Source: Acidobacteriaceae bacterium
GTDB lineage: Bacteria > Acidobacteriota > Terriglobia > Bryobacterales > Bryobacteraceae
Assembly (NCBI GenBank): GCA_019233755.1
Contig: JAFAMD010000002.1
Coordinates: forward strand, 1-64,000
Direction: 5' to 3'
Length of the DNA stretch: 64,000 nt
The notes under the pieces: model-generated
Seen by the model: only the letters and a program-made list of their open reading frames with translations
Databases searched by the model: none
What the model was told of the DNA's origin: nothing
Part shown: positions 15,364 through 24,227 of the stretch, one piece after another
Layout of the letters: each line of letters opens with the position of its first letter
How positions within the stretch are numbered: position 1 is the stretch's first letter
Translations under genes and position numbers: made by a program

Positions 15364-17190
15364 ATGACTACCAACGGGATTCTTCAGATCCTTGCCTATT
15401 TCTTGGTCATTCTGCTGCTAGCGAAACCGGTGGGCACGTTTATGGCCCGTCTCTTCGAAGGCAAGCGGACCTTTCTGCACGGTGCACTTCGGCCACTCGA
15501 AACGCTGGTTTACAAACTTGTCGGCGTAGATGAGACTGTGGAGCAGCGGTGGACGCACTACACCGCGTCGCTGCTGGCATTCAGTATCTTCAGTTTTCTG
15601 TTCGTGTATGCCCTGCAGCGGCTGCAGGGCCTTCTCCCGTTAAACCCGCAGGGTTTTAACCATACCAACGTCTCGCCCGATCTGGCCTTTAACACAGCAA
15701 TTAGCTTCGTTACGAACACGAACTGGCAGGCATATACGCCCGAATCGACCCTGAGCTATTTCGTTCAGATGACTGCTCTCACGGTGCAGAACTTTGTGTC
15801 CGCTGCCGCGGGAATAGCGGTTGCGATTGCCGTGATTCGGGGGTTCGCCCGCCAGCAGGTGAACAGTCTGGGCAACTTCTGGGTCGACCTCACGCGCGCA
15901 ACCCTTTATATTTTGCTGCCCGTCTCGATCGTTGCGGCTTTGCTCCTGTGCGCAAACGGCGTCATTCAGAATTTCGAGCCATACACGGTCGCCAAAACGC
16001 TCGAAGGCGCCAAGCAGGTCATCGCACAAGGTCCGGTGGCATCGCAGGAAGCCATCAAGATGCTCGGCACCAATGGCGGTGGATTCTTCAATGCGAATTC
16101 CGCCCATCCATTTGAGAACCCGACGCCGTTCACGAACTTCATACAGATCATCCTCATCTTCTTCATTCCCGCGGGCCTCACATACACCTTCGGTGTCATG
16201 GTGGGCGATCGCCGGCAGGGCTGGGCGATCTTCGCCGCCTGTGCTGTCCTGTTTTTTGCCGGAGTCTTTACCTGTTACTGGGCAGAGCAAAAAGGCAATC
16301 CTAATTTCGCCAAGCTGGGCGTCGAAACGCATGCTACGGCCGGTCAGGCTGGCGGCAACATGGAAGGCAAGGAGACCCGATTCGGCATCGCCGCGTCCGC
16401 TCTATTTGCCACCGTCACCACGGACGCAAGCTGCGGCGCCGTAAACGGCATGCACGACAGCTTCACACCCATTGGCGGCCTGGTGCCGCTTTTCAATATA
16501 CAGACGGGCGAAGTGATTTTCGGCGGCGTAGGCGCCGGTCTTTACGGGATCCTGCTTTATGCCATCCTGGCGGTCTTTATTGCCGGCCTGATGGTCGGCC
16601 GCACCCCGGAATACATCGGCAAGAAGATCGAGCAGAAGGAAGTCAAAATGGCGATGCTGGCGCTGCTCGCCACTGCTTTCGCAATCCTGGTCTTCGCCGC
16701 AATCAGCTCGGTCATTCCGTTTAACTCACCCACAAAAGACGCCAAGGGACAAGCGGTGGCACAGAGTTATTGGAACCCGCCTGGCCCCGCGACGGCGAAC
16801 TTCAACAACAACGGTCCGCACGGTTTCAGCGAAGCGTTATATGCGTACACCAGCGCGGCCGGCAACAACGGCAGCGCCTTCGCGGGAATCAATGCCAACA
16901 CACCCTGGTATAACTTCACCCTTGGCCTGGCCATGCTGATAGGCCGCTTCCTGTTCTTAATTCCGTTACTTGCTGCCGCCGGGAGCCTGGCGAAAAAGAA
17001 GAGAGTTCCGGCGACGACCGGTACATTCCCGACCCACGGGCCCATGTTTGTCGGCCTGCTGGTCGGGACCGTTCTCCTCGTCGGCGCGCTGACCTTCTTT
17101 CCCGCGCTCGCGCTCGGTCCGATTGTCGAACATTTCCTGATGCAGGACGGCAAGTTCTTCTCGCTGCTTGCGTTCCCTCTTTGGAGCTAA
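15364..17190 (+). CDS. kdpA: K+-transporting ATPase subunit KdpA
   Basis: This is the K+-selective channel-like subunit of the KdpFABC pump. Its 608 residues form about ten membrane segments with four pore-loop regions. Characteristic boxes are [38 protein letters not shown] and [21 protein letters not shown], each carrying a selectivity-filter glycine. The start is an ATG three bases after kdpF. The stop is two bases before kdpB. Confidence 0.97.
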
Positions 17191-17192
17191 CC

Positions 17193-19310
17193 ATGGCCAC
17201 TTCTTTACAAACTCCAGTCGCTCCACCGAGCACAGAACCTTCGCTTCTCCCAACCAAGCTGACTCGCGCACGCCCCCTGTTCGATCCGGAGATCGTGCAG
17301 CGCGCCACCCGGGATTCGTTCCGCAAACTCAACCCGGTAACGCTGATGAAGAATCCGGTCATCTTCGTCGTAGAGGTAGGCGCCGCGCTGACCACGGTTT
17401 TCCTGGTGCGCGATCTGGTCACCCACGCAGCGGGAATCGGATTTGAGATTCAAATCGCACTGTGGCTCTGGTTCACCGTGCTCTTTGCGAATTTTGCGGA
17501 AGCGATGGCCGAAGCTCGCGGCAAGGCGCAGGCCGACACGCTGCGTAAGACCAAAACCGACTCCATCGCTAAACGGGTTCTGCCAAAGGGCAACATAGAG
17601 ACGGTTCCCGCCTCGAGGCTTCGTTCGGGCGACATCGTCATTGCCGAAGCGGGAGACCTGATCCCGGGCGATGGCGAGGTGATTGAAGGCATCGCGACGG
17701 TAGATGAATCGGTAATCACGGGCGAGAGCGCGCCGGTCATCCGCGAATCCGGTGGAGACCGCAGCGCCGTAACCGGCGGCACCAAAGTTCTATCCGATCA
17801 CGTCCGGATCCGCATCACCTCAAATCCGGGTGAGACGTTCCTGGACAAAATGATCGCGCTGGTGGAAGGCGCCGAGCGCCAGAAGACGCCGAATGAGATC
17901 GCGCTCAACATTCTGATCGCCGGTCTCACCCTCATCTTCCTGCTGGCGGTTGCCACTCTCGATCCGTTTGCGATCTACGCGGTTTCGTCATCGGGAGCGG
18001 GCCATGTACCTACCATCGCGGTGCTGGTATCGCTGCTCGTCTGCCTGATCCCAACCACCATCGGCGGCTTACTTTCGGCAATTGGCATCGCCGGCATGGA
18101 CCGCGTGATGCAGCACAACGTTCTGGCAATGAGCGGGAAAGCCGTAGAGGCTTCCGGCGACGTGAATACGCTCCTGCTGGATAAAACAGGAACGATCACG
18201 CTCGGCAACCGGCAGGCGGTAGAGTTTATCGCGTTCGAGGGCGTCACGGAAGCGGAGCTTGCCGATGCGGCTCAGCTTTCGAGTCTTGCGGATGAGACGC
18301 CGGAAGGCCGGTCGATTGTAGTGCTCGCCAAGGAAAAGTATGGCCTGCGCGGACGCGAGATCGCCGAGCACGAAGCGAACTTCATTGCATTTTCGGCATA
18401 CACGCGGATGAGCGGCGTCGACATCGATGGCCGCATGCTGCGCAAGGGAGCGAGCGGCGCTATCGCGAACCTGGTAAAAGAGCTTGGCGGCCGATTGCCC
18501 GCCAACTATGAAGAGATCTCAGACCGCATCTCTCGCGGAGGCGGCACTCCGCTGGCGGTCGCCGATGGGCCGCGCGCGCTCGGCATCATTCACTTGAAAG
18601 ATATCGTCAAAGGCGGGATGAAGGAGCGCATCGGCCAGTTGCGCGCCATGGGCATTCGCTCTGTCATGATCACGGGCGACAATCCGCTGACAGCGGCCGC
18701 TATCGCCAGCGAAGCCGGAGTTGATGATTTCCTCGCACAGGCCACCCCTGCCGACAAGCTCGCGTACATCCGGCGCGAGCAGGGCGAAGGCCGCCTGGTT
18801 GCAATGACCGGCGATGGCACGAACGACGCTCCCGCCCTGGCGCAGGCCGATGTCGGTCTTGCCATGAATACCGGGACCATGGCCGCAAAAGAGGCCGGCA
18901 ACATGGTGGATCTCGACAGCAACCCGACCAAGCTCATTGAAGTGGTGGCCATCGGCAAGCAACTGCTGATAACCCGCGGCGCCCTCACCACTTTTTCCAT
19001 CGCCAATGACGTGGCGAAGTATTTCGCCATCATCCCGGCCATGTTCATGGCTACCTATCCCGCGCTCAGACGTTTCAACATCATGGGATTGCATACGCCG
19101 GAAAGCGCTGTTCTCGCGGCCGTGATCTTCAACGCGCTGATCATCATCGCGCTGGTTCCGCTGGCTTTGCGCGGCGTGAAATACCGCGCCGTAGGGGCCG
19201 CCTCGCTTTTGCGTCGGAACATCTTGATCTACGGCATCGGCGGCATTATCGTGCCTTTCCCGGGTATCTGGATCATCGATCAGATTCTGGTCTGGCTGCA
19301 TCTTGCGTAA
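17193..19310 (+). CDS. kdpB: K+-transporting ATPase ATP-binding subunit KdpB
   Basis: This is the P-type ATPase that energises K+ uptake. ATG 17193 has a GGAG eight bases upstream; a TTG twelve bases earlier is less likely. The actuator domain carries ITGESAPV. The phosphorylated aspartate is Asp330 in DKTGTIT. The nucleotide-binding domain follows, with [16 protein letters not shown] as the hinge motif. The 705-residue length is slightly above the E. coli subunit. Confidence 0.97.
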
Positions 19311-19328
19311 GGAGCGGAGGAGAAATAA

Positions 19329-19910
19329 ATGTTACAGGAACTCAAACCGGCACTCAAAATGGTTTTGCTGCTCACCATTGCAACGGGTCTCGTCTATCCA
19401 GGTGTTATCACCGGCCTCTGCCAGGTTTTTTTCAAGAACGCAGCCAACGGCAGCCTGATCCGGCAAAACGGCCATGTCATTGGCTCTGCTCTGATCGGGC
19501 AAAACTTCACCCGGCCCGAATACTTCCATCCGCGGCCTTCCGCGGCAGGAAACGATGGGTACGACCCGACCGCATCAAGCGGCTCGAATCTCGGTCCCAC
19601 AAGCCAAAAGCTGTTCGATCGGCTGAAAGCGGCGGCGGATCAGTTTCGTAAAGACAACCCTGACTTTAAGGGTCCGATTCCAGCCGATGCTCTGACGGCG
19701 TCCGGCAGCGGGCTCGACCCTGAAATCAGCGTTGCCAACGCACAGGCGCAAGCCGCGCGCGTCGCCAAGGCCCGAGGCATCAGCGTGGATGCAGTTGACA
19801 AACTTGTCGCCTCTGCGACCGAGGCGCGTTCACTGGGGTTCCTTGGGGAACCGCGGGTCAACGTGCTGGGGCTCAACCTCGCACTCGATCAGCAGTTTTC
19901 CAAAAAGTAA
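19329..19910 (+). CDS. kdpC: K+-transporting ATPase subunit KdpC
   Basis: A single-span accessory subunit of the Kdp pump, 193 residues. The N-terminal membrane helix reads [39 protein letters not shown] and [11 protein letters not shown] are the family's conserved soluble motifs. It is preceded by a strong GGAGCGGAGGAG Shine-Dalgarno region. Confidence 0.96.
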
Positions 19911-19957
19911 ACGCAACAGATCTGCGATCGTGGTAACGATCCTCAGGGGGAGGCTCC

Positions 19958-21445
19958 ATGCTGCGTCTTCACTCCGTCTCTGTGTGTTCTCTATTGCTTC
20001 TTTCCCAGGCCGGTGGCTGCCTGGGACAACAGGTTACGCCTGAGGCGCCCTCGGCCCTTGCGAACCACAATGAAAATCAGGCGCCGCTCACGGATCGTGA
20101 GCGCATGCTGCTCGAGCGCATTGCGAATCTGGAACAACGGGTCAACGCGCTCGAGAACAGGCTGGCGGCCGCAACCGCCTCAGCGCACGCGGACCCAGCT
20201 CCAGTGACAGCGGCGCCAGCAACAGCAGCGGTACAAGCGGCTGCCACGGCGCCTCCGCAGGCGGCCCCGGCCAGTCAGGCCGCCCAGACCAATGCCGTCG
20301 CGAATCCCAATCCACCGCCGTTGACCTTCGCCGGCGGCACAACTCTCAACTTCCTCGTGGATGGCTACTACGGGTACAACTTTAACCAGCCCATAGGCCG
20401 TGCGAATCTGCTGCGTGCTTACGATGTTCTCAGCAACGCCTTCAGCTTAGGGCAGGCGGCAATGGTGGTCGACAGCCCGGCCGATCCTGCAGGGGGCAAG
20501 CGATTCGGCCTGCGCCTCGACCTACAGTATGGCCAGGCAACCGAAACGCTGCAGGGCAACCCGGCCAACGAGCCTCGCCCGGACATCTACCGCAACGTCT
20601 TTCAGGCGTACGGTACCTATGTTCTTCCCATTGGAAAGGGCTTGTCCGTCGATTTCGGCAAATTTGCAAGCTCGTTAGGGGTCGAGGGCAATTATACGAA
20701 GGACCAGATGAATTACTCACGGTCTTACTGGTTTAACTTTCTGCCCTTCTATCACATGGGCGTGCGCGCGAACTACAAGTTCAACGACGTCCTGGCGCTG
20801 AACTACTGGATAGTGAACGGCACGCAGCAAACGGAGCCGTTCAACGGCTTCAAGGACGAGTTTTTCGGCTTGGCTATACAGCCCCACAAGAATGTCACGT
20901 GGAACGTGAACTATTATTTCGGCCAGGAACACCCGGACGTACAGTATTTTCCGAACGGCGGTGCGCCTGCGGATGCGCCGAGCATCCAAGGCGTTCCATT
21001 TGAACCTATAGTCAACCCTCCTAAAGGAAAACTACACATCATCGATACATATGTGACATGGAACGTGACGCCGAAACTTACACTCGCCGCGGAAGCCGAT
21101 TGGGAACAGAGCCGTCTCTATGAATCTTCTCCTCCCCTCCATACGGATGGCGGAGCGGCATACGCGCGGTACCGGTTCACCCCCAAATTTGATCTTGCCG
21201 CACGCGCCGAATATCTTTCCGATCGGGGCGGTCTTTTCAGCGGGCTGAACCAGGCGCTCAAAGAGACCACGCTTACAGGTGAGTACCAGATGGTGCAGGG
21301 CTTCGATGTTTTTGTGGAATGGCGCCGCGATTTCTCCAATCAGCCCTTTTTCTACACGAGCACCTTGGGCGTTCTATCGAATCAGCAGAACACCGCCACT
21401 CTTGGCCTTGTGTGGTGGCTTGGAGGCAAGGAAGGTAGCTGGTAG
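19958..21445 (+). CDS. Outer-membrane beta-barrel porin (BBP2/OmpL-like) in the kdp operon
   Basis: A secreted protein of 495 residues with an N-terminal signal peptide. A coiled-coil segment (RMLLERIANLEQRVNALENR, about residues 48-67) and an Ala/Pro-rich linker to about residue 115 follow. The rest is a barrel with alternating aromatic strands (LNFLVDGYYGYNFNQ onwards) and ends in an aromatic-rich strand. The layout matches putative porin-2 family proteins. The start has GGGGAGG upstream. Its place between kdpC and the KdpD-like gene suggests it supplies the periplasm with potassium or another ion; that is inference. Confidence 0.82.
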   Translation: MLRLHSVSVCSLLLLSQAGGCLGQQVTPEAPSALANHNENQAPLTDRERMLLERIANLEQRVNALENRLAAATASAHADPAPVTAAPATAAVQAAATAPPQAAPASQAAQTNAVANPNPPPLTFAGGTTLNFLVDGYYGYNFNQPIGRANLLRAYDVLSNAFSLGQAAMVVDSPADPAGGKRFGLRLDLQYGQATETLQGNPANEPRPDIYRNVFQAYGTYVLPIGKGLSVDFGKFASSLGVEGNYTKDQMNYSRSYWFNFLPFYHMGVRANYKFNDVLALNYWIVNGTQQTEPFNGFKDEFFGLAIQPHKNVTWNVNYYFGQEHPDVQYFPNGGAPADAPSIQGVPFEPIVNPPKGKLHIIDTYVTWNVTPKLTLAAEADWEQSRLYESSPPLHTDGGAAYARYRFTPKFDLAARAEYLSDRGGLFSGLNQALKETTLTGEYQMVQGFDVFVEWRRDFSNQPFFYTSTLGVLSNQQNTATLGLVWWLGGKEGSW

Positions 21446-21481
21446 TAGCAGCCGGAAGTCCGCCTGCCGGATAATAGACTT

Positions 21482-22585
21482 GTGGGGATCGTAACAGACC
21501 GCAGACCAACGCCTGAGCAACTCCTGCAGCAGTTGGAAAGCGAGGAAGAATACCAGACGCACGGCCGTCTGAAGATCTTCCTCGGATATGCATCCGGTGT
21601 CGGCAAAAGCTTTCGGATGCTCGATGAAGGCCGCCGCCGCGCCGAACGCGGTCAGGACGTCGTTGTCGGAGCGATTCAGCCGAAGCTTTCAAGGGAAATC
21701 CTGAAGACTATTTCCCATCTTGAAGTCATTCCGCTCAAGGACGTAAACGGCATTCAGGTAATGGACATGCCCACCATCCTGCGCCGGGCGCCCAAAGTGT
21801 GCCTGGTCGACGGCCTTGCTTATGACAATCCGCCCGGATCTGTCCATGAAAAGCGCTGGCAGGATGTGGCGCAGTTGCTCGAGGCAGGCATCTCCGTCAT
21901 AACCTCGGTCAATTTGCAGCACATTGAGGAGGAGCGGGCAAAGGTCCAACGCATCACCGGTAAGCGGGTAGACCAGGTGGTTCCTCTCAGCTTCCTTCAG
22001 ACCGCGGACGAGATCGTGGTCGTCGACGCGCCGCCGGAAGCATGCTTGAGCGCCACGGACGACTGCCCCGGCTCGGCTCAGAGGCTTACGCAACTTCAGC
22101 TCTCCGAGCTTCGTGAAATTGCGCTCCTGCTGGCGGCTGACGTTATTGATAAGCAGCTTGAACGCTATCTGGCGCGCCACGGCATCGAACAGACCTGGGG
22201 CACACAGGAACGCATCCTCGTCTACATCACTCCGCAGTCAGATTACCAGCGCATGGTTGAGACTGGGGTCCGTAATCGCGACCGCTTCCATGGCGAGCTG
22301 ATCGCGGCGCATATCGATCATCCCGAGTGGTCCGCAGAGGAACGCAAGCGCATCGGAGAGGGTTTGCAGTTAGCAAGGCAGCAGGGCGCCGAGATAGCCG
22401 AAATCGACGGCGTCGACCCGGTGGATGCCATTCTCCACTTTGCACGTCATCGCGGTATTACTCAGATCTTCGTCGGCCATAAAGGACGCGATAGCTGGTG
22501 GGAGCGTGCCTTCGGCAGCGATCTTGACCGGTTGATACGCTCAGCCGACGGAATTGACGTGCGCGTCTTTCCTCATTCGCGCTGA
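21482..22585 (+). CDS. KdpD N-terminal domain protein with universal-stress domain, lacking the kinase
   Basis: The protein covers only the cytoplasmic sensor part of KdpD. The KdpD domain is at about residues 25-235, with Walker A GYASGVGKS (35-43), followed by a USP-like domain (about 245-367). The four membrane spans, GAF and histidine-kinase domains of full KdpD are absent. The stop is followed directly by a convergent gene, so this is not a recent break. The usual VDELAHTNAPGS box reads VDGLAYDNPPGS, with the Glu replaced by Gly. Stand-alone KdpD N-terminal proteins are known in some cyanobacteria and other bacteria. The start is GTG without a clear ribosome binding site. Confidence 0.88.
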   Translation: MGIVTDRRPTPEQLLQQLESEEEYQTHGRLKIFLGYASGVGKSFRMLDEGRRRAERGQDVVVGAIQPKLSREILKTISHLEVIPLKDVNGIQVMDMPTILRRAPKVCLVDGLAYDNPPGSVHEKRWQDVAQLLEAGISVITSVNLQHIEEERAKVQRITGKRVDQVVPLSFLQTADEIVVVDAPPEACLSATDDCPGSAQRLTQLQLSELREIALLLAADVIDKQLERYLARHGIEQTWGTQERILVYITPQSDYQRMVETGVRNRDRFHGELIAAHIDHPEWSAEERKRIGEGLQLARQQGAEIAEIDGVDPVDAILHFARHRGITQIFVGHKGRDSWWERAFGSDLDRLIRSADGIDVRVFPHSR

Positions 22586-23382
22586 ACGCTGGCGCCGGCC
22601 AGAAAGAACACCCGCCCGAATCCGAGTTCGGACACGACCCCGGCATCACGCGATTGCACCGCTTCGACGCCCCTGAAACCTGCTTCCGTAAGAGCAAGCA
22701 GAATTTCCGACTGCGAATAGCATTGCTGCTTGACAACACTTCGGTGCTGCCGCCAGAGGTTATCCTGGCCGGTTCGAACAAACCAGATCAGCTCTGTGCG
22801 CGCCATCTTCGAGATCGGATCGAAGACCCCGCGCACCAATCCAACCGAAGTGTCACTTATATCCACTGCCCACTGCCTTAGATCCGCCGAGTAAGCCTCT
22901 TCCAGATTCATGTCGAACAGGAACAACCCGCCCGGCTTCAGTGACCGCTGTACGCCTGCAAAAACGCGCCGCAAGCCGTCGAGTTCGAGGATATGGTTGA
23001 GCGAATCGAACGTCGAGAGCACAGCATCGTACCGCTTTTCGAGCTGCAGGTCCCGCGCGTCCTGCACACGAAAATCGACGCCTGGCAGATTCCGTTGAGC
23101 GATGGCTATCAGTTCGGCCGAATTGTCGACCGCGGTCACCTGGTAACCGCGCGCAACCAGTTCTTTAGTGACGTGACCCGAACCGCAACACAAATCCAAA
23201 ACGCACGCCCCGTGCGGCAACCGCGAAAAGAGGAGTCGCTCAAGCGCGGGCATTGCGGCTGGCAGATACCAATCGGCCCATAGCTCGTGGTACATGCCTG
23301 CGATCTCGTCGTAGGAGGAAATGCTGGTGTTTGCCATGCCCAAGAGGAGTGTGACGCGAGGCGGGGCCTGCACGCGCCTCAT
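22573..23382 (-). CDS. Class I SAM-dependent methyltransferase
   Basis: A Rossmann-fold methyltransferase. Motif I is VLDLCCGSGHVTKELVARGY, the acidic motif II is VTAVDNSAELIAIA, and the DARDL loop precedes DAVLSTFDSLNHI. The later segment FDPISKMARTELIWFV resembles small-molecule methyltransferases. Substrate unknown. ATG 23382 overlaps the stop of the upstream small gene as ATGA, which suggests translational coupling. An internal ATG at 23337 (MANTSISSYDEIAGMYHELW) is the alternative and better matches family N-termini. The 3' end overlaps the convergent KdpD-like gene by 13 bases. Confidence 0.85.
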   Translation of the reverse strand: MRRVQAPPRVTLLLGMANTSISSYDEIAGMYHELWADWYLPAAMPALERLLFSRLPHGACVLDLCCGSGHVTKELVARGYQVTAVDNSAELIAIAQRNLPGVDFRVQDARDLQLEKRYDAVLSTFDSLNHILELDGLRRVFAGVQRSLKPGGLFLFDMNLEEAYSADLRQWAVDISDTSVGLVRGVFDPISKMARTELIWFVRTGQDNLWRQHRSVVKQQCYSQSEILLALTEAGFRGVEAVQSRDAGVVSELGFGRVFFLAGASVQRE

Positions 23383-23612
23383 TGATGAATTTTTTGAGGC
23401 GGCTCGTTCACGAGCTGCTGCAGAATGCCCTGGGCAAGAGATTGGGCCTCTCCGAACACTTGTAGATACTCCTGAAATTTGTGGTTCAATTCCATCGCGT
23501 GGCTTGGCGTAAGGCGTGCGCGAATGATCATATCCCGCACATGGACCGGATTCGGAAGCGTAGCGTCATCCTGGAGCTCTTCCAGAGCGAGAGCAGGTTG
23601 GTAATGATACAT
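23379..23612 (-). CDS. Small hypothetical protein (77 residues)
   Basis: A soluble, helix-rich protein of 77 residues with no family I recognise. The ATG has a good GGGAGG Shine-Dalgarno sequence seven bases upstream, and the stop overlaps the methyltransferase start. Both support a real gene in a two-gene transcript. Function unknown. Confidence 0.6.
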   Translation of the reverse strand: MYHYQPALALEELQDDATLPNPVHVRDMIIRARLTPSHAMELNHKFQEYLQVFGEAQSLAQGILQQLVNEPPQKIHQ

Positions 23613-23672: not shown

Positions 23673-24227
23673 CTATTCTCCTGCAATTCCTTTGTTGCGG
23701 ACAGCCGCGAGAAGCGTTTCAGGAGAAGCGTTATCGCCAAACGTGCGGTTTAAATGCACGTATAGGTCCCGGTTCCCTGGAGCGAACACAAAGCTGGCGC
23801 CGAGTTGAAAAGGGTTCTGGCCCAGACGATGCTGCCTGTGTCCCGCAGCACGCGCGCGAGCTCTGGCTTCGGAATTATCGCGTCGAAGGGTGTGCAAAAT
23901 ATTGCCGGTCTTCAGCCCCGCGGCTTTATAGGCGATTCGTTTTTCATCCAATAGCAGCGGAAAACTGATACCAGTCTCCTCCCGAAAGAGATTTGCATAG
24001 GTGAAGTCGCCCAGGCCGACGGCCGCGATCTGCGCTCCCGCCTCTTTGAAATGAGCCTCGTAATCGCGCAACTGCGCGACGTGTTCACGGCAAAAAATTC
24101 AGCCATAGTGGCGAAGGAAAACAAGGACCGCGGGACCGCCCTCCCAAAGCGAACCTAACCGCATCTCGCGTCTGCTCGTATCAGGCAGAACGATCGGGGC
24201 CAGCGTTTCGGCGAGGGAAAGGGGCAT
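23673..24227 (-). CDS. Candidate selenoprotein: peroxiredoxin-like (AhpC-TSA_2) protein with in-frame TGA in a UxxC motif
   Basis: Read from ATG 24227, the frame encodes 184 residues of an AhpC/TSA-like thiol oxidoreductase, interrupted once by TGA at 24101-24099 (codon 43). The context is VLVFLRHYG-(TGA)-IFCREHVAQLRDYE. In this family the box is RHYGCxFCRE, so the TGA sits exactly at the first redox Cys and would give U43-I-F-C46. The reading frame is intact on both sides, with family-like sequence before (LAETLAPIVLPDTSRREMRL) and after (GDFTYANLFREETGISFPLL, then ASFVFAPGNRDLYVHLNRTF). A hairpin 18 bases after the TGA fits a bacterial SECIS. The alternative is a nonsense mutation, and standard gene calling would start only at the internal ATG 24071. 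Redox defence or repair is the expected role. Confidence 0.75.
24063..24080 (-). promoter_or_regulatory. Bacterial-SECIS-like hairpin downstream of the in-frame TGA
   Basis: On the minus strand GTCGCGC-AGTT-GCGCGAT forms a seven-pair stem (one G-U pair) with a four-base loop whose second base is G. The loop G lies 27 bases after the TGA. Bacterial SECIS elements are stem-loops inside the coding region, shortly after UGA, with a G at the first or second loop position; this one meets those rules. Binding by SelB is inference. Confidence 0.55.

Follow-up and report, generated by a model that had tools for sequence, protein, structure and literature searches.

A probable UxxC peroxiredoxin-like selenoprotein gene with a conserved in-gene hairpin in Acidobacteriota

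A minus-strand gene in the draft genome of an Acidobacteriaceae bacterium raises the question of whether an in-frame TGA can be read as selenocysteine (Sec, U). The gene lies in the window, the stretch of 64,000 nucleotides analysed here, and its frame runs from an ATG at 24227 to a TAG stop ending at 23673, with the TGA at 24101-24099 as the single in-frame stop between them. In the translated frame this codon falls in the context RHYG-U-IFC. A preliminary description of the locus had proposed one frame broken by this TGA alone, on which sequence and translation agree, and had predicted that annotation would call a 132-residue fragment from 24071. The standard-code ORF listing does return exactly that 132-aa piece, from a TTG, and misses the full 184-residue protein. 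On the comparative evidence presented below, we estimate a probability of about 95% that the gene encodes a selenoprotein. The coordinates of its features are collected in Table 1.

Table 1. Features of the gene and their positions in the window.
Feature	Position	Strand	Remark
Probable selenoprotein gene, UxxC peroxiredoxin-like (AhpC-TSA_2 / SelL-related), 184 residues plus stop	23673..24227	minus	
TGA at codon 43, putatively read as selenocysteine	24099..24101	minus	TGA in 45/46 non-redundant relatives
Codon 46, Cys of the UIFC motif, likely resolving residue	24090..24092	minus	Cys in 46/46 non-redundant relatives
Candidate SECIS hairpin within the coding sequence, 7 pairs, loop AGUU (24073-24070)	24063..24080	minus	
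132-aa fragment from mechanical ORF calling, TTG start	23673..24071	minus	

Removal of rows identical around codon 43 left 54 rows in the comparison, 46 of which (counting the window gene) share 54% identity or more with the window protein; the eight rows outside this set are L099, L100, L103-L107 and L127, and L126 lacks codon 43. Within the set of 46, the only departure from TGA at codon 43 is a single GGA, no sequence presents a Cys codon there, and Cys46 is invariably encoded by TGC or TGT. The preliminary description had held that close relatives all carrying Cys, with decaying sequence here, would speak against selenocysteine, and the result obtained is the contrary. The exceptional GGA (L084:3127-3129, Terriglobia MAG SRVP_25) occurs with intact hairpin codons in a genome that has selB, and points to an assembly error or to a Sec codon that was lost recently.

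Scanning the named genome collection led to a concordant view, with TGA at codon 43 in 39 of 46 loci, TGC in six (29-40% identity) and GGA in one. The six distant homologues with TGC at the aligned codon bear out the earlier statement that the family has Cys at this position. The scan used two peptide patterns, one spanning codon 43 with Cys and one beginning after it, and hence carries no bias towards TGA. The same codon is TGA in the close orthologues of two genomes of the same genus, G008 (78% identity) and G014 (75%). These were the sole close orthologues among 16 same-genus genomes searched, and the gene is therefore not universal in the genus. Across the class, 20 of 299 genomes presented a match at E 1e-15 or better (the window's own draft assembly, G000, and G014 included), 19 of them with TGA and the remaining one without the N-terminal part. 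These locus sets overlap, the values for L062 and L063 being identical to those for G008 and G014.

Two further kinds of TGA-bearing sequence were observed among more distant relatives. L127 (G132:C1:47481-47978), which is 30% identical to the window protein, presents the motif U-PF-Y, in which the TGA is retained and the second Cys is replaced by Tyr. A separate peroxiredoxin-like selenoprotein candidate with the motif W-TGA-PFC was detected in five same-genus genomes (L030, L032, L035, L039 and L044; 30-33% identity) and in another genome of the class (L027), the group spanning 30-36% identity to the window protein. With the window protein as query, the only match in G000 was the gene at 23673-24227, with no second match of any kind, the W-TGA-PFC type included.

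Pairwise comparisons over codons 4-175 revealed few amino-acid changes before and after codon 43, in line with the earlier observation of protein-like sequence on both sides. Between G000 and G008, pS/pN was 0.83/0.105 before the TGA and 0.753/0.125 after it, and two other pairs gave 0.711/0.118 and 0.700/0.165, and 0.755/0.092 and 0.783/0.139, respectively; synonymous changes are saturated in several pairs, so that these values do not yield an exact ratio. The comparisons indicate, at the sequence level, that the protein is under similar selective constraint on both sides of the TGA.

These data bear directly on the possibility that the TGA is a true stop in a Cys-type peroxiredoxin gene, owing to a nonsense mutation or a sequencing error. 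Standard-code ORF calling does read it as a stop, and tRNA-Sec was not found in the genome's own assembly, as detailed below, but such an origin needs close copies with Cys, of which there are none among the 46, and it has to contend with a TGA maintained down to 54% identity in many separately named public assemblies, with constraint on either side. A pseudogene or sequencing error was dismissed on the conservation of the TGA across relatives, and the probability left for a true stop is negligible.

The preliminary description had also reported a seven-pair hairpin with a G in its loop, 18 bases past the TGA. This structure was located at 24080-24063, where GUCGCGC pairs with GCGCGAU around the loop AGUU; it occupies bases 19-36 after the TGA, and its second loop base is the G (alignment column 30), which is invariant in 46/46. 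The apical hairpin of SECIS elements is described in PMC4607533 as a 5/6-bp stem with an invariant loop G. The hairpin analysed here likewise lies shortly after the TGA and presents a G in a small apical loop.

Two lines of evidence for a SECIS element were tried and rejected as proof. Folding energy alone is weak evidence, since the z-score is only -1.67, with 12 of 200 shuffles folding as well, and some Cys homologues give equal or lower folding energies (L105 and L107 reach -14.5 kcal/mol over the stretch in which the window gene reaches -11.4). Covariation was dropped because the stem hardly varies: 96% of cells in a 6-pair stem form standard pairs and no compensatory double changes occur in the alignment, which makes it uninformative for or against a SECIS.

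Codon usage outlined a much sharper signal. Leu53 is encoded by TTG in 46/46 and Ala51 by GCG in 46/46, codons that account for 13% of Leu and 28% of Ala codons elsewhere in the same genes. Likewise, Gln52 is CAG in 45/45 (70% elsewhere in the same genes), Val50 is GTC in 37/40 (42%), and Arg54 is CGC in 38/43 and CGT, which retains a G-U pair, in the other 5/43, while Leu38, 15 codons off the hairpin, uses several codons freely. The four most frozen codons of 42 comparable positions (four- or six-codon residues conserved in at least 85%, with an ungapped registration that is approximate past about residue 110) are 53, 51, 50 and 54, all of them codons of the hairpin stem. The bias reaches beyond the hairpin, to Glu48 (GAG in 44/46, 51% elsewhere) and Cys46 (TGC in 44/46, 46% elsewhere). 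Shared ancestry inflates these counts, yet the same sequences vary freely elsewhere. The combination of GCG at 51 and TTG at 53 appears in none of the six Cys homologues and is present in L127, which has the same hairpin codons, GCG CAG TTG CGC. Another TGA-bearing sequence at about 30% identity, L106, presents GCG GAG CTG CGT and lacks the exact hairpin sequence, an alternative hairpin being possible there. The codon pattern constitutes strong sequence-level evidence that the hairpin is an RNA signal, kept as nucleotides rather than merely as protein.

The presence of such a signal raised the matter of the decoding machinery. The search for selA, selB and selD in the rest of the genome called for in the preliminary description returned all three in G000, at 510, 385 and 357 bits, respectively, each over its curated cut-off. 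Given the conservation of the hairpin and the presence of the sel genes, we infer that the hairpin would be a SECIS read by SelB. No tRNA-Sec was identified in G000, which is 92.7% complete, among the 150 of 723 first-look candidates scored with the Rfam model; eight matches to the model were rejected, ARAGORN assigning them to tRNA-Ser (four), tRNA-Leu, tRNA-Arg, tRNA-Trp and tRNA-Asn. Used as a DNA query against G000, the tRNA-Sec of G014 gave no match longer than 29 bases.

The genus provides a context for this absence. Matches to tRNA-Sec of at least 68 bits were obtained in 15 of 16 same-genus genomes, the exception being G015 (55% complete), and ARAGORN reported tRNA-Sec with anticodon TCA in 5/5 relatives examined. 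In nine same-genus genomes, tRNA-Sec lies close to the obgE match, at 50 bases or less in seven, below 300 in one and at about 1.7 kb in one. G000 presented no obgE over the cut-off (best score 79 bits; those nine genomes reach 414-456), nor any match to the ObgE protein of G014. As its genus neighbour obgE is absent too, the missing tRNA-Sec is read as a gap in the draft. The preliminary description had counted such an absence as refuting only in a complete genome, which this assembly is not. A GTPase of the wider Obg group was observed in G000 (C23:29147-29590) with one in-frame TGA within a 367-aa frame, the corresponding matches in relatives being free of TGA.

In the genomes that carry the 46 named loci, selB scores over the cut-off in 35/39 with TGA, 3/6 with Cys and the single one with GGA. 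The four TGA-bearing genomes without a selB match at E 1e-50 are those of L072, L073, L077 and L086, for which genome completeness is not given. The association between selB and TGA is hence not strict, since selB goes unmatched in these four and is present in half of the Cys-bearing genomes. These four genomes, together with the tRNA-Sec unseen in draft G000, are what can be invoked for decoding of the UGA as something other than Sec, whether by readthrough or by a suppressor tRNA that brings in Cys, Trp or some other residue. Such decoding is very improbable in the light of the selA, selB and selD genes of G000, the tRNA-Sec of 15/16 same-genus genomes with its TCA anticodon in the five relatives examined, the missing obgE that would account for the missing tRNA-Sec, and the hairpin frozen at the nucleotide level right after the TGA. 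The selenoprotein reading put forward in the preliminary description is therefore retained, with selA, selB and selD in place and with its strongest support in the conservation of the TGA, the constraint on both of its sides and the codon freeze centred on the hairpin.

In terms of family, the earlier designation as AhpC-TSA_2/PRXL2-like holds, both by domain and by structure. Profile programs, in which codon 43 was entered as Cys, matched the window protein to AhpC-TSA_2 (PF13911; E 1.4e-14, 54.9 bits against a gathering score of 27) and, more weakly, to AhpC-TSA (PF00578; E 3.5e-11). The NCBIfam model NF040769, SelL-related redox protein, matched with E 7.6e-32 and 110.3 bits, below its curated cut-off of 120, and full membership was rejected on this score. 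Each of the 11 proteins scanned nonetheless finds its best NCBIfam match in NF040769 (99-135 bits), and five of the ten relatives scanned pass its cut-off, comprising 3/7 Sec members (L089, 124.0 bits; L092, 126.2; L098, 134.7) and 2/3 Cys members (L099, 135.1; L100, 127.8). By sequence, the window protein sits at the edge of the NCBI SelL-related redox family.

An AlphaFold2 model of the window protein (mean pLDDT 92) predicts a thioredoxin fold. Its top PDB match is human prostamide/PGF synthase (PGFS; entry 9usa, titled as a C44S/C47S double mutant; E 5.5e-12), followed by the peroxiredoxin Bcp4 in second place and by ResA chains at ranks 3-5, with 21-24% identity in three PGFS structural matches. 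A profile of 21 family members also placed PGFS first (E 1.1e-16, profile positions 12-175), and reached ResA at E 1.5e-9 over positions 7-106. U43 and C46 align with C44 and C47 of PGFS. PGFS, also named PRXL2B, reduces prostaglandin-type endoperoxides with thioredoxin.

The gene neighbourhood was compared within 2.8 kb at 46 loci, some of which offer only about 1.5 kb of flank, and no conserved operon was seen among them. The commonest neighbour, a short-chain dehydrogenase, occurs at 8/46 in various orientations, and the next commonest at 3/46. None of the four viral stretches that matched a pattern encodes a relative. In the window itself, a 77-residue minus-strand ORF with a GGGAGG-like ribosome site (23379-23612) lies directly downstream of the probable selenoprotein gene, between it and a methyltransferase gene (22573-23382). 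A kdp-like potassium transport cluster occupies 17181-22585 on the plus strand, with a KdpB-like ATPase, a KdpC-like ORF, a porin-like ORF and a KdpD sensor domain with Usp; in this KdpD only the KdpD and Usp domains, and no kinase domain, were matched, and the other members were named by eye.

The structural matches support two views of the reaction that the protein would catalyse. It could be a thiol:disulfide reductase of the ResA type, with protein disulfides as substrates, as suggested by the ResA chains among the top fold and profile matches and by the resemblance of UxxC to the CxxC of thiol:disulfide oxidoreductases. However, PGFS is the better match by structure and, over a longer part of the profile, by sequence, and Bcp4 also ranks ahead of ResA. 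ResA is membrane-anchored, whereas no N-terminal signal or anchor is visible by eye in the window protein. We thus regard a ResA-like role as rather unlikely. A peroxide-type substrate is somewhat favoured, by analogy with the activity of PGFS as the nearest solved relative, and the most likely activity would be the thioredoxin-dependent reduction of peroxide-type substrates, lipid (endo)hydroperoxides for instance.

Under the selenoprotein reading, SelB carrying Sec-tRNA(Sec) would bind the in-frame hairpin downstream of the UGA, and the ribosome would place selenocysteine at the first position of UxxC, directly ahead of the first long helix. In keeping with family chemistry, the selenolate would then attack a peroxide-like or disulfide substrate, Cys46 would resolve the resulting intermediate by forming a selenenyl sulfide, and recycling of the enzyme would fall to thioredoxin or a comparable reductant. 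Insertion of Sec in the cell, the substrate and the reductant are elements that we infer.

Several known selenoproteins resemble the window protein. SelL proper is defined by a UxxU motif with two Sec residues, and SelL-like proteins in which Cys takes the place of one or both Sec were reportedly described alongside it in 2007. The window protein shares with SelL and SelL-related proteins (NF040769) a peroxiredoxin-like nature and Sec in the redox motif, but differs from SelL proper in presenting UxxC with a single Sec, codon 46 being a Cys codon. It differs from human PGFS (PF13911, PRXL2 family) in being bacterial and in having Sec in place of the first Cys. SelL itself appears in PMC2398784 as a peroxiredoxin-like selenoprotein of prokaryotes and eukaryotes. 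An AhpC-TSA_2 selenoprotein (pfam13911) with motif UxxS is catalogued in PMC9312934, and a cd02970 selenoprotein with the same motif in PMC13188914; the former shares its Pfam domain and first-position Sec with the window protein, but not the UxxC motif. Both sources also list a PF00578 selenoprotein with UxxC/UxxU, described in PMC9312934 as a peroxiredoxin-like thiol:disulfide oxidoreductase, which shares UxxC and a peroxiredoxin-like nature with the window protein, although the latter matches PF00578 more weakly than PF13911.

For the phylum, a table of a 2006 survey (PMC1794560) gives three families and four selenoproteins in Acidobacteria, and a table of a 2025 test on one of its genomes (PMC12013277) gives three known selenoprotein genes. 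Words beginning with 'Acidobacteri' are absent from the main text of the recent reviews PMC9312934 and PMC13188914. The portions of the literature searched contained no description of this UxxC group in Acidobacteriota, which could still have been reported elsewhere, and the NCBI family model suggests that members of the group are known in databases.

In a tree of 53 rows, from which L101 was omitted as too short, 45 rows (44 with Sec, one with Gly and none with Cys) group together with support 95/94. This group is mostly Acidobacteriota, with two records from Myxococcota, one from Planctomycetota and one from an uncultured bacterium, which may reflect transfer or mis-binning. Two Sec rows, L106 (Armatimonadota) and L127, fall outside it on long branches near Cys rows. 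The Sec label requires four changes on the tree, with three forced by well-supported branches; the forced changes could represent one gain and two losses. A tentative scenario, which we consider distinctly less probable than a peroxide-type substrate as such, is that of an old, Sec-locked PRXL2/SelL branch kept as a selenoenzyme by Acidobacteriota, with a near-fixed in-gene SECIS, operating as a selenium PGFS that would reduce lipid-derived (endo)peroxides.

Overall, the evidence gives good support to placing the window gene in a new branch, largely of Acidobacteriota, within a known kind of selenoprotein, real and ordinary in kind. It adds a widely held and well-supported selenoprotein to the Acidobacteriota, whose gene is truncated by standard-code ORF calling. 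The frozen GCGCAGTTGCGC-type hairpin provides a clear sequence by which SECIS elements of the group can be recognised. With no Cys version among its close relatives, this branch is also well suited to studying why Sec has been retained.
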